Shown here: one piece after another, positions 5,847 to 14,691 of the stretch
How the letters are laid out: each line of letters opens with the position of its first letter
Numbering within the stretch: the stretch's first letter is position 1
Origin: an uncultured Anaerolineales bacterium
GTDB taxonomy: Bacteria > Chloroflexota > Anaerolineae > Anaerolineales > Villigracilaceae
Assembly: GCA_937928015.1 (NCBI GenBank)
Contig: CALFXA010000192.1
Coordinates: 1-20,166 of the forward strand
Length of the DNA: 20,166 nt
Direction of reading: 5' to 3'
Notes under the pieces: generated by a model
Databases searched by the model: none
What the model was told of the DNA's origin: nothing
What the model saw: only the letters and a program-made list of their open reading frames with translations
Translations under genes and position numbers: made by a program

Positions 5847-6632
5847 ATGCACTTCTTAAAATTGATCTCCACCTTTCTCAAGGTCAACATCCAGATGTCG
5901 CTGGCCTACCGCGCCGACACGCTGGTCAACATCCTGCTCAACATCATGTGGCTGGGCTGGGAGCTGCTCGGGCTGAGTATCATCTTCAACAACACCACCA
6001 CGCTGGGCGGCTGGGGAATCGGCGAGTTGATCGCCCTGCTGGGCGTCTTCCGCCTGATCAACACCATGATGGCTTCGATCATCTGGCCCAACACCGAGAA
6101 ATTCAATCAGAGCATCCGCGACGGCTCGCTCGATTACACCCTGTTGCAACCTGCACCCAGCATGTTCCTGGTGACCTTCTCGCGCATCACCATCTGGCGC
6201 ATGTGGGACCTGCTCCTGTCCATCGTGCTGATCGTGGCGGGCGTCCGCATGGCGGGCGACGTCGCCACCCCGCTCAACATCCTGACCTTCCTCCTGCTGA
6301 CCGTCTCGGGAGCAATCGTCCTCTACAGCCTGTGGATCGTGCTGATCGCCTTCACCTTCTGGTTCACCAAGTTCGACAACAACGTCACCATCCTACAAGC
6401 CCTGCTTGACGCGGGCCGCTATCCCGTCAGCGTGTACCCCGCCTGGGTACAGATCATCGTGACCTACCTGGTTCCCATCGCGGTCGCCACCACGGTCCCG
6501 CTCCAGGCCTTGCGCGGCGACCTCAGCCTCGGGCGGGTGTTGATCTTTCTGGCCGTCAGCGTCGTCGCGGCCTGGGCTGCCTCGCTGGTCTGGAAGGCAG
6601 GCATCCAACGCTACAGCGGCGCGAGCAGTTAA
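5847..6632 (+). CDS. ABC-2 type exporter permease 2 (COG3694/DUF990-like)
   Basis: A 261-residue membrane protein whose ATG lies 3 nt after the stop of permease 1, so the two are surely co-translated. About six hydrophobic spans are visible, with MSLAYRADTLVNILLNIMWLGWELLGLSIIF at the N-terminus. The loop IRDGSLDYTLLQPAPSMF is the partner version of the DGSLxxxLxRP element, with Gln replacing Arg. The end VWKAGIQRYSGASS repeats the GxxxYSGA tail of this family. It completes the ATPase, permease, permease set. No terminator is seen directly after it; the next one is the lysC attenuator terminator at 6777-6810, where read-through transcripts would also be tested. Confidence 0.92.
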   Translation: MHFLKLISTFLKVNIQMSLAYRADTLVNILLNIMWLGWELLGLSIIFNNTTTLGGWGIGELIALLGVFRLINTMMASIIWPNTEKFNQSIRDGSLDYTLLQPAPSMFLVTFSRITIWRMWDLLLSIVLIVAGVRMAGDVATPLNILTFLLLTVSGAIVLYSLWIVLIAFTFWFTKFDNNVTILQALLDAGRYPVSVYPAWVQIIVTYLVPIAVATTVPLQALRGDLSLGRVLIFLAVSVVAAWAASLVWKAGIQRYSGASS

Positions 6633-6636
6633 CCGC

Positions 6637-6665
6637 TTGACGCATCCACCTCCCAGTGATATAAC
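6637..6665 (+). promoter_or_regulatory. Promoter of the aspartokinase attenuator leader
   Basis: TTGACG (6637-6642) and TATAAC (6660-6665) are separated by exactly 17 nt and match the sigma70-type consensus at 5 of 6 positions each. Transcription should begin near 6672-6674, at or within two bases of the leader ATG (6674). TATAACTGCGCGCAATG here resembles TATAATTGCGCGCATG at 16681-16696. Confidence 0.82.
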
Positions 6666-6673
6666 TGCGCGCA

Positions 6674-6757
6674 ATGTCCAACCCGACCTTCGGTATGACC
6701 ATGACCATGACTACCCTTCGCTCCACGCGTAGGGTTTGTTTGGTTGGTCGAGCCTGA
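6674..6757 (+). CDS. Thr/Met-rich leader peptide of the aspartokinase attenuator (leaderless)
   Basis: A 27-codon ORF, too short for usual gene callers, beginning MSNPTFG and continuing MTMTMTT at residues 8-14 (6695-6715), then LRSTRRVCLVGRA and TGA. Six of 27 codons are Thr and four are Met. Thr and Met are both end products of the pathway that the downstream lysC and asd genes feed; there is no Lys codon. The ATG is 8 nt after the -10 box, so the mRNA probably starts at the ATG and needs no ribosome-binding site. The position, the codon clustering just before RNA arm 1 (6713-6721), and the stop codon 19 nt before the terminator stem match classical ribosome-mediated attenuation, as in the E. 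coli thr leader. The peptide itself is not expected to have a function. Confidence 0.85.
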   Translation: MSNPTFGMTMTMTTLRSTRRVCLVGRA

Positions 6758-6789
6758 GAGAGGCACAAGTCCACACAAACGCCCTGCGC
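6713..6789 (+). promoter_or_regulatory. Attenuator: alternative 1:2 and 2:3 (antiterminator) RNA pairings
   Basis: Arm 1 (ACCCT-t-CGC, 6713-6721) pairs with arm 2 (GCG-t-AGGGT, 6727-6735). Arm 2, extended as GCGTAGGGTTTGT (6727-6739), can instead pair with arm 3 (ACAAACGCCCTGCGC, 6775-6789) through 13 base pairs with one G-U and a 2-nt bulge. Arm 3 is also the left half of the terminator. A ribosome stalled at the Met/Thr codons would cover arm 1 and free arm 2 to block termination. A ribosome that reaches the stop codon covers arm 2 and lets the terminator form. Confidence 0.82.
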
Positions 6790-6810
6790 AACGCAGGGCG
6801 TTTTTATTTT
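6777..6810 (+). terminator. Attenuator terminator upstream of aspartokinase
   Basis: CGCCCTGCG (6780-6788) and CGCAGGGCG (6792-6800) form a perfect 9-bp GC-rich stem with loop CAA, extended by three A-U pairs and followed by TTTTTATTTT (6801-6810). It is an intrinsic terminator lying between promoter and gene on the gene's own strand, the arrangement expected for an attenuator. Confidence 0.92.
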
Positions 6811-6848
6811 CTCGCTGCGCAAAGTCGAAGCGAACACAGGAGCGCACT

Positions 6849-8279
6849 ATGTCAGAGAACTCATCCAAAACACTGGTCATGAAATTCGGCGGGACCTCCG
6901 TCGGCCTCGGCTTGCCGAACGCGGTACAGATCGTCAAGGATACCCGCGCCGATTGGGGACGCGTCGTCGTGGTGACCTCGGCCATTTCGGGCGCCACCGA
7001 CCGCCTGTTGAACTCGGCCACCCACGCCGCACAGGGCGACCTGACCACCTTGCGCTCGACCTCGGCCTGGCTCCGTCAAAGCCACGCGGACCTGGCCGAG
7101 AAGCTGGTCGCTGACCCCGTCCGCCGCGCCCAGGTCAACACCGAGATCGGCGCGCTGATCGACTCGTTCGTCGAGTTGTGCCGAGCCATCGGCGTGCTGG
7201 GCGAAGCCTCGCCGCGCGCCCTGGACGCGGTCGCGTCACTGGGCGAGCGCATGAGTGTGCGGCTGCTCTCGGCGGCTATCGAAAGCGTAGGCGTGCCGTC
7301 GAAATACGTGGAGGCCACAGAATTAATTCTGACCAACGACCGTTTCCAGCACGCGCATCCCGATTCCACGCAAACCACCGAGCGGACGCGCCGCGTGCTG
7401 AATCCGCTGCTCGACCAGGGCATCGTCCCTGTGGTGACGGGCTTCATCGGCGCGACGGAGAAGGGTGCCATCACCACGCTGGGACGCGGCGGCTCGGACT
7501 ATTCCGCGGCCATTCTGGGCGCCGCCCTGCCCGCCGATGATGTGTGGATCTGGACCGACGTGGACGGCGTGATGACCGCCGACCCGCGCCTCGTGCCCGA
7601 TGCCCGAACGCTGCCCCAGGTCACCTACAGCGAGGTGGCCGAGTTGGCCTATTACGGCGCGAAGGTGCTGCACCCCAAGACCATCCGCCCGGTGGTGGAT
7701 GCGGGCATCGGCCTGCGCATCTGCAACACGTTCAACCCGTCGCATCCGGGCACGCGGCTGGTGGGTAACAACGGCAACGGCCACAAGGCCCTGCGGGGCG
7801 ATGAGGTCGTCCGTGCGGTGACGGCCATCCGCCAACAGCGGCTGGTCACCATCGAGGGGCGGGGCATGCTCGGGGTCCCCGGCGTGGCGGCGCGGACCTT
7901 TGGCGCAGTGGCCTCCACAGGCACCAGCGTCCCGCTCATCACGCAGGCTTCTTCCGAACAATCCATTTGTTTCGCCATCCCCTACAGCGCGGGTGAGGAG
8001 ACCGTCCGCGCGCTGGAGCAGGTCTTCGCCGAGGAGTTGGAAGACGGCGACATCGACCGCGTGTGGATGACCGATGAGGTCGCCATCCTGACCGTGGTCG
8101 GCGCGGGCATGCGGCATACGCCGGGCGTGTCGGGGTACGTCTTCAGCCAGCTTGGGGAGCAGAATGTCAACGTGCTGGCCATCGCGCAGGGTTCGTCCGA
8201 GGTCTCGATCAGCGTCGTGATCGATTCAGCCGACACCGAGCGCGCCGTGAAGGCGCTGCATGAAATGATCGTCAAATAA
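6849..8279 (+). CDS. lysC: Aspartokinase (aspartate kinase), ThrA-like monofunctional
   Basis: A 476-residue enzyme that phosphorylates aspartate, the first step to Lys, Met and Thr. ATG 6849 follows AGGAG (6838-6842) by 6 nt; the upstream extension of the frame is leader DNA. The kinase domain opens with KTLVMKFGGTSVG (K12, FGGTS 13-17) and contains TLGRGGSDYSAAILGAAL, WTDVDGVMTADPR and ELAYYGAKVLHPKTIRPV. Two ACT regulatory domains follow, from about residue 332 (LVTIEGRGMLGVPGVAARTFGAV) and about 408. The segment PLITQASSEQSICFAIP resembles the ISQASSEHSI signature of threonine-sensitive aspartokinase I rather than lysine-sensitive LysC, which fits the Thr/Met leader peptide. No homoserine dehydrogenase domain is fused. 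The asd gene follows after 20 nt. Feedback specificity is inferred, not shown. Confidence 0.95.
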   Translation: MSENSSKTLVMKFGGTSVGLGLPNAVQIVKDTRADWGRVVVVTSAISGATDRLLNSATHAAQGDLTTLRSTSAWLRQSHADLAEKLVADPVRRAQVNTEIGALIDSFVELCRAIGVLGEASPRALDAVASLGERMSVRLLSAAIESVGVPSKYVEATELILTNDRFQHAHPDSTQTTERTRRVLNPLLDQGIVPVVTGFIGATEKGAITTLGRGGSDYSAAILGAALPADDVWIWTDVDGVMTADPRLVPDARTLPQVTYSEVAELAYYGAKVLHPKTIRPVVDAGIGLRICNTFNPSHPGTRLVGNNGNGHKALRGDEVVRAVTAIRQQRLVTIEGRGMLGVPGVAARTFGAVASTGTSVPLITQASSEQSICFAIPYSAGEETVRALEQVFAEELEDGDIDRVWMTDEVAILTVVGAGMRHTPGVSGYVFSQLGEQNVNVLAIAQGSSEVSISVVIDSADTERAVKALHEMIVK

Positions 8280-8299: not shown

Positions 8300-9358
8300 A
8301 TGTCCCAACCCATCATCCCCGTCGCCGTGCTCGGCGCAACAGGCAGTGTCGGTCAGCGCTTCATCTCTCTGCTCGACAATCATCCGTGGTTCAAGGTCGT
8401 GGCCCTGGCCGCCTCGGACCGTTCGGAGGGTAAGAAATACGCCGAGGCCTGCCGCTGGATTTTGAACGACCCGATGCCCGATTGGGCACGCGAGATGACG
8501 CTGGTCCCCTGTCTGCCCAATTCGGTGGGCGACGCGCGCATCGTCTTCTCGGCCCTGCCCGCCGACCAGGCCAAGGACCTGGAGCCACAGTTCGCGCAGG
8601 CGGGCATGGCGGTCTGCTCGAACGCATCGTCGTACCGCACCGCCGAGGACGTGCCGCTCCTGCTGCCCGAGGTCAACGCCGACCATGTCGCGCTGGTCAA
8701 GCAACAACGCCTTCAACGCGGCTGGAGCGGCGCCATCCTGACCAATCCCAACTGCACCAGCACGGGCCTGACCGTGGCGCTCAAGGCCATTCAGGATAAG
8801 TTCGGGCTGAAGCGCGCCTTCGTCGTTTCGATGCAGGCGCTCTCGGGCGCGGGCTACCCTGGCGTGCCCTCGCTCGACATCATCGACAACGTCATCCCCA
8901 ACATCGGCGGCGAAGAGGACAAGGTCGAATGGGAACCGCGCAAGATGCTCGGCACGCTCACCGCTCAAGGCGTGGAACTGGCCGAGGTCAAGTTCTCGGC
9001 GCACACCAACCGCGTGGCCGTGGTGGATGGTCATACCGTGTGCGCCAGCGTGGAACTGGACTCGCCCGCCAGCCCCGAGGAGGTCATCGCCGCCCTGAGC
9101 GCCTACCGCTCCCACCCGCTCGCTGCGAGACTCCCGTCCGCGCCTGACCCCGTGATCCTGGTCCGCTCCGAACGTGACAGGCCCCAGCCGCGCCTCGACC
9201 GCCTCACGGGCAGAGGCATGTCCACCGTGGTGGGACGTGTCCGACTCGACCCGCTGCTGCACATCAAGTTCGTAGTCCTCTCACACAACACCATCCGCGG
9301 CGCCGCGGGCGGCTCGATCTACAACGCGGAGTTGTTGGTCAGCGAGAAGCTGTTGTAA
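8300..9358 (+). CDS. asd: Aspartate-semialdehyde dehydrogenase
   Basis: A 352-residue enzyme that reduces aspartyl phosphate, the aspartokinase product, to aspartate semialdehyde. The N-terminal NADP-binding fold begins IPVAVLGATGSVGQRFISLL. The catalytic cysteine is C152 in NPNCTSTGL, and H235 in KFSAHTNRVAVVDGHT is the expected acid-base histidine. The sequence style (SMQALSGAGYPG, NIGGEEDKVEWEPRKMLG) is that of the archaeal/fungal-type ASADH rather than the E. coli type. AAAGGAG (8285-8291) lies 8 nt before the ATG, and the gene is 20 nt after lysC, so both share the attenuated promoter. A run of nine A follows the TG of the stop codon. The next co-directional signal is the terminator at 9494-9530. 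Confidence 0.95.
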   Translation: MSQPIIPVAVLGATGSVGQRFISLLDNHPWFKVVALAASDRSEGKKYAEACRWILNDPMPDWAREMTLVPCLPNSVGDARIVFSALPADQAKDLEPQFAQAGMAVCSNASSYRTAEDVPLLLPEVNADHVALVKQQRLQRGWSGAILTNPNCTSTGLTVALKAIQDKFGLKRAFVVSMQALSGAGYPGVPSLDIIDNVIPNIGGEEDKVEWEPRKMLGTLTAQGVELAEVKFSAHTNRVAVVDGHTVCASVELDSPASPEEVIAALSAYRSHPLAARLPSAPDPVILVRSERDRPQPRLDRLTGRGMSTVVGRVRLDPLLHIKFVVLSHNTIRGAAGGSIYNAELLVSEKLL

Positions 9359-12421: not shown

Positions 12422-13321
12422 CTATTTCTTCGAGAACTCGATCAGCTTGGCGGCCACTTCCGCGCCGACGCGGGCCTGGGCTTCCTTGGTGGCGGCGCCG
12501 ATGTGCGGCGAGCCGATGACGTTGTCGAGCTTGAGCAGCTTCCAGTCCGTGGGCGGCTCCTCGGCGAAGACGTCCAGCGCGGCGCCAGCCACCTTGCCGC
12601 TGGTCAGGGCTTCGTAGAGCGCGTTCTCGTCCACAATGCCGCCGCGGGCGCAGTTGATGATGCGCACGCCGTTCTTCATCTTGCCGAACTGCTCCGCGCC
12701 AATCATGCCCGCGGATTCCTTGGTCTTGGGCAGGTGCAGGCTGATGTAATCGGCCTGGGCCAGCAGCTCGTCGAGGGTCACCATCTGGATACCATCCACA
12801 GCCTTGACGTAGGGATCATAGGCCACGACAGTCATGCCGAGGGCGATGGCGCGCTTGGCGGTTTCCTTGCCGATGTTGCCGACGCCGATCAGGCCGAGGG
12901 TCTTGCCGCCGATCTCGTCGCCTTCGAAGGACTTCTTGTCCCATTTCTCGGCCTTCATCGAGGAGGTCGCCTTGTAGAGCGAGCGGGCCAGAGCGAACAT
13001 GTAGCCGATGGCGAGTTCCGCCACCGAAGCGGAGGAGGCCAACGGAGTGTTCATCACGGCGATGCCCTTGGACTTGGCATACTCGTGGTCGATGGTGTCG
13101 AGGCCGACGCCGCCGCGCACGATAACCTTCAGGTTGGGGCACACGTCGATCAACGGCTGGCGCACCTTGGTGCGTGAGCGGACGATCATGCCGTCGTAGG
13201 CGGGCAACACATTGGGCAGTTCTTCGGGGGTGATGTCGTCGCGCACATCCACGGTCAGGCCCGCGGCGCGCATCTGTTCGATATACTCTTTTTCGGTCTT
13301 GTCGCAGACGAGGATCTTCAT
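12422..13321 (-). CDS. serA: D-3-phosphoglycerate dehydrogenase, short form without ACT domain
   Basis: A 299-residue NAD-dependent 2-hydroxyacid dehydrogenase catalysing the first step of serine synthesis. ATG 13321 is chosen from MKILVCDKTE and an AAGGAG ribosome-binding site about 8 nt upstream. Rossmann motif TLGLIGVGNIGKETA (GVGNIG 146-151); catalytic residues R226 in CARGGIVDE, E255 in DVFAEEPP, and H273 in GSPHIGAAT. The substrate-domain segment IVRSRTKV and VIVRGGVGLDTID fit SerA. It ends right after the catalytic domains and lacks the C-terminal ACT domain through which serine inhibits longer SerA forms. Control may therefore lie in expression, and the gene has a long leader with an internal terminator. 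It is divergent from serC and upstream of DUF1015. Confidence 0.93.
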   Translation of the reverse strand: MKILVCDKTEKEYIEQMRAAGLTVDVRDDITPEELPNVLPAYDGMIVRSRTKVRQPLIDVCPNLKVIVRGGVGLDTIDHEYAKSKGIAVMNTPLASSASVAELAIGYMFALARSLYKATSSMKAEKWDKKSFEGDEIGGKTLGLIGVGNIGKETAKRAIALGMTVVAYDPYVKAVDGIQMVTLDELLAQADYISLHLPKTKESAGMIGAEQFGKMKNGVRIINCARGGIVDENALYEALTSGKVAGAALDVFAEEPPTDWKLLKLDNVIGSPHIGAATKEAQARVGAEVAAKLIEFSKK

Positions 13322-13374
13322 GAGGGTTCTCCTTGTTGAATTTGTATAGTCCAGCAGGTATGGACCAGTTGAAA

Positions 13375-13434
13375 TTAAAAAGAGACCCGCCCGACGAATC
13401 GGCTGGTCTCCGTGGGACGCGTGCAAAGTATCAC
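13375..13434 (-). CDS. Predicted leaderless leader ORF overlapping the serA attenuator-like terminator
   Basis: A GTG at 13434, 6 nt after the -10 box of the serA promoter, opens a 19-codon frame reading MILCTRPTETSRFVGRVSF followed by TAA in the U tract. The intrinsic terminator (13377-13410) lies wholly within the frame, so a translating ribosome would directly prevent hairpin formation. Serine codons occur at positions 11 and 18, Cys at 4, Arg at 6, 12 and 16. There is no striking run of one amino acid, so the sensed signal is unclear. The spacing from the -10 box is the same as at other genes here. The translation is a prediction. Confidence 0.5.
   Translation of the reverse strand: MILCTRPTETSRFVGRVSF
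13377..13410 (-). terminator. Intrinsic terminator in the serA leader
   Basis: On the minus strand GAGACC (13410-13405) pairs with GGTCTC (13387-13382), and CCGA pairs with TCGG around a TTCG tetraloop, with a small internal loop. TTTTT follows immediately (13381-13377). It is located downstream of the serA promoter and about 55 nt before the serA ATG, the arrangement of an attenuator rather than a gene-end terminator. Confidence 0.8.
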
Positions 13435-13440
13435 GAAGGC

Positions 13441-13469
13441 ATTCTAACAAGCCGAAAACCCTTTGTCAA
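13441..13469 (-). promoter_or_regulatory. Strong serA promoter
   Basis: TTGACA (13464-13469), a perfect -35 box, and TAGAAT (13441-13446), one mismatch from the -10 consensus, are separated by exactly 17 nt on the minus strand. The predicted transcript begins near 13434 and carries a leader of about 113 nt before serA. Confidence 0.85.
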
Positions 13470-13605: not shown

Positions 13606-14691
13606 ATGACCAAACGTGTGTTCAACTTCAACCCTGGTCCCGCCGCCCTGCCGCTCGAAGTCCTCGAGCAGGCCCAGGCCGAAATGCTGGACTTCAAGGG
13701 CACGGGCATGTCCGTGATGGAAATCAGCCACCGCTCGAAGGAATTCGAAGCCGTCATCAACACCGCTGAAGCGGACCTGCGCGAGCTGCTGGGCATCCCC
13801 GCCAATTACAAGATCCTGTTTCTGCAGGGCGGCGCGTCGCTGCAATTCGCCATGCTGCCCATGAACCTGCGCCCCGTGGGTGCTTCCGCCGACTATATCG
13901 TGACCGGCACCTGGAGCAAGACCGCCATCAAGGAATCCAAGAAATTGGGCACCGCCCGCGCCGCCGCCAACACCGAGGCCGAGGGATTCAAGAGCCTGCC
14001 CGCCAGCCTGGACCTCGACCCGAAGGCCGCCTACCTGCACTTCACCTCCAACGAGACCATTCACGGCGTCGAGTTCTTCACCGAACCGACCCCGCCCGCG
14101 GGCGTCCCGCTGGTGTGTGACTGCTCTTCCGATTTCATCAGCCACCCAATCGACGTCTCCAAGTACGCCATGCTGTATGCGGGCGCGCAGAAGAACGCCG
14201 GTCCCTCGGGTGTGGTCGTGGTCATCGCCCGCGAGGACATGCTCGAGCGCACGCCCGAGAACCTGCCCGTCATGCTCGACTACAAGGCCCTGGCCGCCAG
14301 CGGCTCCCTGCACAACACCCCGCCCTGCTGGTCCATCTACATGGTCGGACTGGTTTTTCAATGGGTCAAGAAGATGGGTGGCCTGGCGGGCATCGAGAAA
14401 ATCAACCGCACGAAGGCAAACCTGGTCTACAACGCCATCGACAACAGCGGCGGCTTCTATCGTGGACACGCCCTGCCTGAGGCCCGCTCGATCATGAACA
14501 TCCCCTTCCGCCTGCCCAGCGAGGAACTCGAAGACACCTTCGCCAAGGAAGCCAAGGGCGCAGGCCTGATCGGTCTGAAGGGACACCGCTCCGTCGGCGG
14601 CATGCGCGCTTCCATCTACAACGCCATGACCGTGGAAGGCACCGAGGCGCTGGTCCAGTTCATGAAGGAATTCCAGAAGAAGCACGGATAG
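13606..14691 (+). CDS. serC: Phosphoserine aminotransferase
   Basis: A 361-residue PLP enzyme that converts 3-phosphohydroxypyruvate, the SerA product, to phosphoserine using glutamate. It begins RVFNFNPGPAALPLEVL, and the N-terminal region includes GTGMSVMEISHRSKEF. The cofactor region has FLQGGASLQFAMLPMNL, and K196 in YAGAQKNAGPSG is the Schiff-base lysine. It ends with KGHRSVGGMRASIYNAMTVEGTEALVQFM. Full length for the class IV aminotransferase family. AGGAG lies 10 nt before the ATG. It is transcribed away from serA. A phosphoserine phosphatase gene (serB), the third step, is not in the window. A strong terminator follows (14718-14752). Confidence 0.96.
   Translation: MTKRVFNFNPGPAALPLEVLEQAQAEMLDFKGTGMSVMEISHRSKEFEAVINTAEADLRELLGIPANYKILFLQGGASLQFAMLPMNLRPVGASADYIVTGTWSKTAIKESKKLGTARAAANTEAEGFKSLPASLDLDPKAAYLHFTSNETIHGVEFFTEPTPPAGVPLVCDCSSDFISHPIDVSKYAMLYAGAQKNAGPSGVVVVIAREDMLERTPENLPVMLDYKALAASGSLHNTPPCWSIYMVGLVFQWVKKMGGLAGIEKINRTKANLVYNAIDNSGGFYRGHALPEARSIMNIPFRLPSEELEDTFAKEAKGAGLIGLKGHRSVGGMRASIYNAMTVEGTEALVQFMKEFQKKHG

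Follow-up and report, generated by a model that had tools for sequence, protein, structure and literature searches.

The ask gene encodes the enzyme that starts the synthesis of threonine, methionine and lysine. In E. coli, the aspartokinase step is preceded by the thr attenuator (thrL), which combines a leader peptide containing Thr and Ile codons with alternative hairpins and a terminator, and in the ilvGMEDA-type attenuators of enteric bacteria Ile, Val and Leu are read by a single leader peptide. T-boxes bind one uncharged tRNA, and their function does not need translation. The amino-acid attenuators named in the accessible part of a 2013 survey (PMC3766115) are those for His, Leu, Thr, Trp, Ile/Val and Phe, for which a gammaproteobacterial origin was suggested. 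Leader-peptide systems are known in Proteobacteria and Actinobacteria, to which Firmicutes were added according to the available text of PMC2965389, and in the excerpted PMC1262725 a search of Actinobacteria found no conserved RNA structures for the Thr, Met or Lys operons. Leaderless polycysteine short ORFs of mycobacteria are described, in the passages available from PMC9031893 (citing Canestrari et al. 2020) and PMC9094748, as attenuators through which cysteine availability governs the operon that follows. Among the matches listed in a literature search that covered little of the subscription literature, no leader-peptide attenuator was found for Chloroflexota or for Met.

The window, i.e. 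the whole 20,166-nt stretch of DNA analysed here from an uncultured Anaerolineales bacterium, carries upstream of ask-asd a run of end-product codons, a mutually exclusive terminator and antiterminator, and an intrinsic terminator between the ORF and ask, as is characteristic of leader-peptide attenuators. Judging from the sequence and from folding models, ask-asd is very probably (at a probability of roughly 0.88) controlled by a ribosome-mediated transcription attenuator sensing charged tRNA-Thr and tRNA-Met. The leader has in common with the E. coli thr attenuator a Thr-rich leader peptide, alternative hairpins, a terminator and the aspartokinase step; it differs in that its codons are those for Thr and Met, its peptide is predicted to be leaderless, and the genes that follow are a monofunctional ask and then asd. 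Nor is it a member of the Rfam family RF00506 (Thr_leader), which matches the leader at 18.9 bits (E 0.27) against a gathering score of 55. As in the ilvGMEDA-type attenuators, several amino acids of one pathway would be read in one leader peptide, although here they are Thr and Met, and the sister leaders described below have Asn/Asp or Thr/Asn codons instead. The proposed device resembles T-boxes in sensing tRNA charging and in controlling amino-acid genes, but it has no T-box match and contains a conserved ORF. With the mycobacterial polycysteine ORFs, as far as the excerpts of the sources describe them, it shares a short ORF with a codon run and, as proposed, control of a downstream operon, and its ORF is likewise predicted to be leaderless, whereas the ask leader has Thr/Met codons, an intrinsic terminator and a covarying antiterminator. 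The type of mechanism is classical; what looks new is the phylum, the partnership of Met with Thr, the predicted leaderless initiation and the apparent network of related leaders. Such a device would bring leader-peptide attenuation into Chloroflexota, and its specificity, Met together with Thr, is absent from the part of the PMC3766115 survey available.

The leader region upstream of ask-asd

The locus comprises the following features:

6637-6642, + strand: -35 box TTGACG (TTGAC in 66 of 67 leaders)
6660-6665, + strand: -10 box TATAAC, at a 17-nt spacer from the -35 box
6672-6673, + strand: predicted transcription start, placed from the -10 position, 1-2 nt before the ATG
6674-6757, + strand: leader peptide ORF of 27 codons encoding MSNPTFGMTMTMTTLRSTRRVCLVGRA and a stop, with no Lys codon
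6695-6715, + strand: putative regulatory codons ATG ACC ATG ACC ATG ACT ACC (MTMTMTT, residues 8-14)
6713-6721, + strand: arm 1, pairing with arm 2 and overlapping the last Thr codon
6726-6750, + strand: arm 2, pairing with arm 1 or arm 3
6769-6789, + strand: arm 3, which pairs with arm 2 as the antiterminator and whose 3' portion doubles as the terminator's 5' strand
6792-6803, + strand: arm 4, the 3' strand of the terminator
6777-6803, + strand: intrinsic terminator stem-loop of 12 bp (6777-6788 with 6792-6803), loop CAA
6804-6810, + strand: U tract TTATTTT, directly 3' of the terminator stem
6838-6842, + strand: Shine-Dalgarno sequence AGGAG of ask
6849-8279, + strand: ask (lysC), aspartokinase with ACT domains, start codon ATG at 6849
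8300-9358, + strand: asd, aspartate-semialdehyde dehydrogenase of the asd_EA type, the second gene, after ask

The promoter and the short ORF with its Met/Thr run and no Lys codon, both described in the earlier note, are confirmed; a strict promoter scan gave no promoter because it demands T as the last base of the -10 box. The positions proposed there for arms 1, 2 and 4 also stand, but the duplex shows that arm 2 runs on to about 6750 and that arm 3 starts at about 6769. Likewise, the hairpin and U tract before lysC are present, but the stem, at 12 bp, is a little longer than the '9-bp GC stem' given there.

The Met/Thr run exceeds chance expectation: none of 5000 Markov (dinucleotide) resamples of 6633-6848, in which ATG ORFs of 10-60 codons were counted, gives six or more Met/Thr codons in seven, while seven were observed. 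The fold of 6673-6815 has a z score of -4.7, with 1 of 200 shuffles equally stable. Terminator-like sites alone are not rare, with two in 6000-7400 (both of them this hairpin) against a shuffle average of 0.9. Elsewhere in the window, serA (12422-13450, - strand) and serC (13606-14691, + strand) lie divergently, and the match of the serA product to the 525-position PGDH model is confined to positions 1-300, the C-terminal part of the protein seeming to be absent.

Conservation of codons, promoter and RNA arms in Anaerolineae

The nearest relatives of the window are Chloroflexi/Anaerolineae MAGs. Over a 2.4-kb piece comprising the leader and ask, DNA identity to the window is 92% in locus L001 and 85% in L002, and the ask proteins are 96 and 92% identical, respectively; the Met/Thr run is the identical peptide in all three, and the flanking residues vary on both sides. 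By a codon criterion (an upstream ORF with at least four of eight codons for Met or Thr), a Thr/Met-rich leader was found in 66 of 80 ask loci of GTDB species genomes, after L040, L064 and L080, which also reached the threshold, had been removed by eye as chance ORFs. A 67th leader, in L013, is a covariance-model match (73.5 bits) and enters only the count of 67/80, which, since the 80 loci are the best 80 of 127 by similarity to the ask of the window, is a prevalence among close relatives only. A terminator-like hairpin with a T-rich tail precedes ask in 66/66 leader-bearing relatives and in the window (raw count of the finder). The leader peptide of L010, ...GTMTMTTTSGKTREAFVLGQR, is typical of the main clade, and deep relatives retain the architecture and a Thr-rich run, as in L075 (...GMTMTTTSRRRQPLLRFG). 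The leader could serve as a conserved, codon-readable predictor of amino-acid control for uncultured bacteria. No leader was found in 13 of the 80 loci, among which L018 and L071 offer just 39 and 108 nt of sequence before ask; a strong match to the leader model (95.8 bits) does occur on another contig of the L018 genome. In L079 (positions 1-2819), LSU and 5S rRNA genes lie directly upstream of an ask without leader.

The covariance model, R1, was built from 59 aligned leaders (alignment A1). Eight divergent leaders (L059, L063, L072, L073, L074, L075, L077 and L078) were left outside the alignment, which is why the covariation counts cover 59 of 67 leaders; R1 recovers seven of these eight, outside its training, at E values of 3.5e-8 to 9.8e-5 and misses L074. 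The rows are not all independent because L049 and L062 share one MAG and L067 and L068 are near-identical. In a class-wide scan of 298 genomes, 15 were matched by R1 at E<=0.001 and 10 of these also at E<=2.5e-12, but this figure is not a prevalence, since R1 is specific to close relatives and stricter filters drop divergent leaders; at least four of the ten strongest genomes belong to its training set.

A -35/-10 pair was found in all 67 leaders. Apart from L024, which has no ATG within 30 nt past the -10 box, the spacer is 17 nt in 57 of 66 leaders, and the first ATG lies 8-13 nt past the -10 box (exactly 10 nt in 38). This ATG and the Met/Thr core share a reading frame in 65/66 leaders, against about one third expected by chance, and the exception, L078, has a doubtful promoter call. 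If transcription starts 7 nt past the -10 box, 65/66 leaders would have a 5' UTR of 2-5 nt and the remaining one a UTR of 7 nt, which leaves no room for a Shine-Dalgarno sequence; for this reason, and because the first ATG lies near the -10 box and in the frame of the core, the leader peptide is predicted to be leaderless. In the window, the transcript would start at about 6672, 2 nt before the ATG, with the leader peptide essentially leaderless, and such a design would let the first ribosome load as soon as the earliest nucleotides of the RNA are made. According to the text available from PMC3160421, sequence analysis of 12 Chloroflexi genomes revealed leaderless genes in 4 of them. In the genome of one relative (G001), a pattern consisting of a TTGAC/TATnnT promoter 5-9 nt before an ATG has 19 matches, against 3 for the reversed control, which suggests that leaderless genes may be frequent in this lineage. 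In 10 of the 19 the ATG opens a frame of at least 90 codons. Only the aminotransferase leader among these matches resembled an attenuator, the strict pattern being one that misses the ask leader.

Each of the three proposed helices covaries. In the 59 aligned leaders, 99.4% of the terminator cells are paired, with 33 double-change cells and double changes in 7 of 11 pairs; the antiterminator (arm 2:arm 3) has 90.6% of cells paired, 33 double-change cells and 6 of 14 such pairs, and the 1:2 hairpin 86.7%, 11 cells and 2 of 7 pairs. In percentage paired, double-change cells and covariation score, each of the three helices exceeds all 500 of its shuffles; the 59 aligned sequences share ancestry, which shuffling leaves in place, so these counts are not strict probabilities. 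The number of pairs with double changes and that of pair types are unexceptional in the antiterminator (reached by 50 and 165 of 500 shuffles) and in the 1:2 hairpin (173 and 333). On single measures, slid helices come close: an antiterminator displaced by -2 also has 6 pairs with double changes, one displaced by +2 is 72.5% paired, and the 1:2 hairpin at +2 has a covariation score of 0.136, compared with 0.160 in place. Individual pairs are broken in part of the alignment, namely the 1:2 pair at columns 40/49 in 31/59 sequences and the antiterminator pair 56/131 in 20/59. The duplex of a leader's own arms 2 and 3 has a mean energy of -28.5 kcal/mol, against -24.2 when arms are swapped between loci (67 leaders), and the own arm 2 beats shuffled arm 2 at z below -2 in 56/67; on average, a quarter of foreign arm 3s outpair the own arm 3.

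Column entropy at codon positions 1/2/3 amounts to 0.54/0.84/1.19 bits in the core and 0.62/0.83/0.69 bits in the arm-2 region. The rise at the third position in the core, which does not occur in arm 2, indicates constraint on the codons within the core and on the RNA elsewhere. Conservation in the main clade extends to the C-terminal end of the peptide (e.g. REAFVLGQK), as would be expected if the ORF encoded a functional micropeptide and the hairpin were an ordinary upstream terminator or a constitutive dampener. This explanation is very improbable, however: the conserved tail lacks the third-position excess that coding constraint produces and falls on arm 2, for which covariation with arm 3 is seen, and deeper relatives have another peptide tail while arm 2:3 duplexes are still present. 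The conservation of Thr/Met codons through synonymous changes, and of the arm pairings through compensatory changes, in Anaerolineae relatives is the outcome that the earlier note had named as support for an attenuator, and it strengthens that reading.

Folding of the leader and the amino acids probably sensed

In the proposed mechanism, RNA polymerase would start some 2 nt ahead of the leader ATG, and this near-5'-terminal codon would be used by a ribosome for initiation without a Shine-Dalgarno sequence. When charged tRNA-Thr and tRNA-Met are ample, the ribosome would cross the Met/Thr codons and arm 2 to the stop codon, leaving arm 3 free for arm 4, and transcription would terminate at about 6806-6810. 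When either charged tRNA is short, the ribosome would stall at 6695-6715 and mask arm 1, so that arm 2 would pair with arm 3, the terminator would be blocked and ask-asd would be transcribed. One aspartokinase gene could in this way read two branch end products at once.

Folding models were computed for RNA ending at arm 3 and for the whole leader at equilibrium. In the former, arm 3 pairs upstream (P>0.5) in 66/67 leaders with a ribosome in the core and in 3/67 with a ribosome at the stop codon, compared with 49/67 without a ribosome and 64/67 with a ribosome just before the core. What this model distinguishes is thus a stalled ribosome from a finished one, not the core from earlier codons, and since arm 2:3 forms without a ribosome in 49/67, termination of untranslated RNA is not assured by the 1:2 hairpin alone. 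In the window at equilibrium, the terminator has a probability of 0.99 without a ribosome, with a ribosome before the core and with one at the stop codon, and of 0.01-0.02 when the last ATG, ACT or ACC occupies the A site, a flip that is thermodynamically feasible and singles out the core codons in the window. With the full terminator at equilibrium, stalling lowers the terminator probability by more than 0.5 in only 17/67 leaders, the window included, and most leaders would therefore need co-transcriptional (kinetic) folding.

From the codon content, we infer joint control by Met and Thr. The 8-codon cores contain 302 Thr, 124 Met, 1 Ile and 3 Lys among 536 codons, and at least one Met occurs in 63/67 cores, with two or three in 48. 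The dominant Thr codons, ACC and ACT, are one transition away from Ile and two changes away from Met, and only 6 codons are ACG, the Thr codon that differs from ATG by a single change; the 124 Met against a single Ile suggest that AUG has been selected, although the cores were picked by Met+Thr density, which favours Met/Thr over other residues. An attenuator that is real but senses threonine only, its AUG codons being incidental or spare start codons, would fit the excess of Thr over Met, the four cores without Met and L058, where a single ATG is followed by seven Thr codons. It would also fit the codons adjoining arm 1, which are almost always Thr (ACC at 6713 in 55/59 and ACC/ACT at 6710 in 52/59). 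Against it stand the presence of Met in nearly all cores and the single Ile, which makes an origin of Met by mutational drift unlikely, an argument weakened somewhat by the core selection. Moreover, spare starts would be needless given the 5'-proximal in-frame ATG, and the equilibrium model of the window antiterminates already with the A site on the last ATG. Threonine-only sensing is therefore considered unlikely, though it deserves more weight than the other alternatives, and the joint reading of Thr and Met is preferred; the codon choices of the aspS, aminotransferase and ask-asd leaders, which are coherent, also support Met as a genuine signal.

Other regulatory devices and sister leaders in related genomes

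At the ask leader, all Rfam families stay below their gathering scores, both in the window and in 17 leader-bearing ask loci, and the three sub-threshold matches there are led by Thr_leader, a family with no match at gathering score anywhere in the window or in the 20 loci scanned. In particular, no T-box (RF00230), lysine riboswitch or SAM riboswitch was found upstream of ask in the window and the 17 loci. T-boxes (at thrS) and SAM riboswitches (after ask) do exist in these genomes, which lends some plausibility to a riboswitch of the T-box, lysine or SAM type, or a protein-binding leader, as the control of ask, with the Met/Thr ORF a coincidence. Given the lack of any Rfam family at gathering score and a Met/Thr run that is conserved and beyond chance, this explanation is extremely improbable.

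One aspartokinase match at E<=1e-30 was found in each of 10/10 genomes searched, which fits the proposed control of the pathway. Five of the 17 leader-bearing ask loci scanned (L004, L008, L010, L020 and L025), and also L033, have a SAM riboswitch 1.1-1.3 kb past the end of ask, and none was found in the window; in L008 it follows asd, near a gene whose protein, by its sequence, looks like O-acetylhomoserine sulfhydrylase. A T-box at the Rfam gathering score precedes thrS in two of four loci tested (L210 and L211). A T-box-like stretch is visible by eye before thrS in L212 and L213. The status of Thr and Met thus seems to be read elsewhere by other devices, and the shared first step, ask, appears to read both.

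No Thr/Met leader with terminator was found at hom in 20 loci from 18 genomes, at least two of which (L140 and L145) were read in an unrelated frame. The negative result for thrC (30 loci, no leader) is weak because the choice of the longest ORF took a neighbouring gene in many of them. The 10 loci scanned for each of thrS and trpE have terminators without any leader ORF like that of ask, with no T-box at gathering score in three trpE loci; ilvB had no ask-type leader in 10 loci, and phage DNA gave no match.

The same architecture precedes aspS and a PLP aminotransferase gene, always in genomes of relatives and not in the window, which suggests a small attenuation network of the aspartate family. 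This device, like the predicted leaderless initiation, was absent from the earlier reading. It appears fairly probable that Anaerolineae possess such a network of leaderless leaders, each integrating two charged-tRNA signals, beside single-signal T-boxes and SAM riboswitches; the pairs would be Thr/Met at ask-asd, Asn/Asp at aspS (in one genome aspS-asnS) and Thr/Asn at the aminotransferase gene. If this is true, a leader-peptide attenuator would use methionine as a regulatory amino acid, and would do so in a phylum for which we found no such attenuator reported.

Among 20 second-tier R1 matches fetched, 11 are aminotransferase leaders, one is an aspS leader and eight are apparently unrelated. 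The aminotransferase leaders (L091-L096, L098, L105, L106, L108 and L109) encode Thr/Asn/Arg-rich peptides, e.g. MFNLFNHNLNTNTTRTTRW, and are predicted to be leaderless; a promoter-leader pattern applied automatically found 8 of these 11 again and took a spurious ORF in L098. The enzyme belongs to Aminotran_1_2, its best PDB matches are named aspartate aminotransferase, and no curated NCBIfam cut-off was reached among the 25 families shown.

Upstream of aspS, a predicted leaderless ORF with at least six Asn/Asp in eight codons was found in 21 of 27 loci (L150-L176), and a further aspS leader is visible by eye in L170. A typical leader peptide is that of L155, MYTSIQFANNNNDNDDRCIVGRSFAG. The terminator starts 15-25 nt past the stop codon in 20/21, compared with 55 nt in L167, a weaker case. 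A swapped-arm control was uninformative here (-23.4 with own and -23.3 with swapped arms) because the arms are nearly identical. In G001, the region around L159 contains, by names taken from translations, a gatB-like gene, the leader, aspS and an asnS-like gene, and the second aspS of this genome (L103, leader 456-582) has an Asn/Asp leader of its own, MKPELLFALNNNNNNNDDRMAAVGRSASG.
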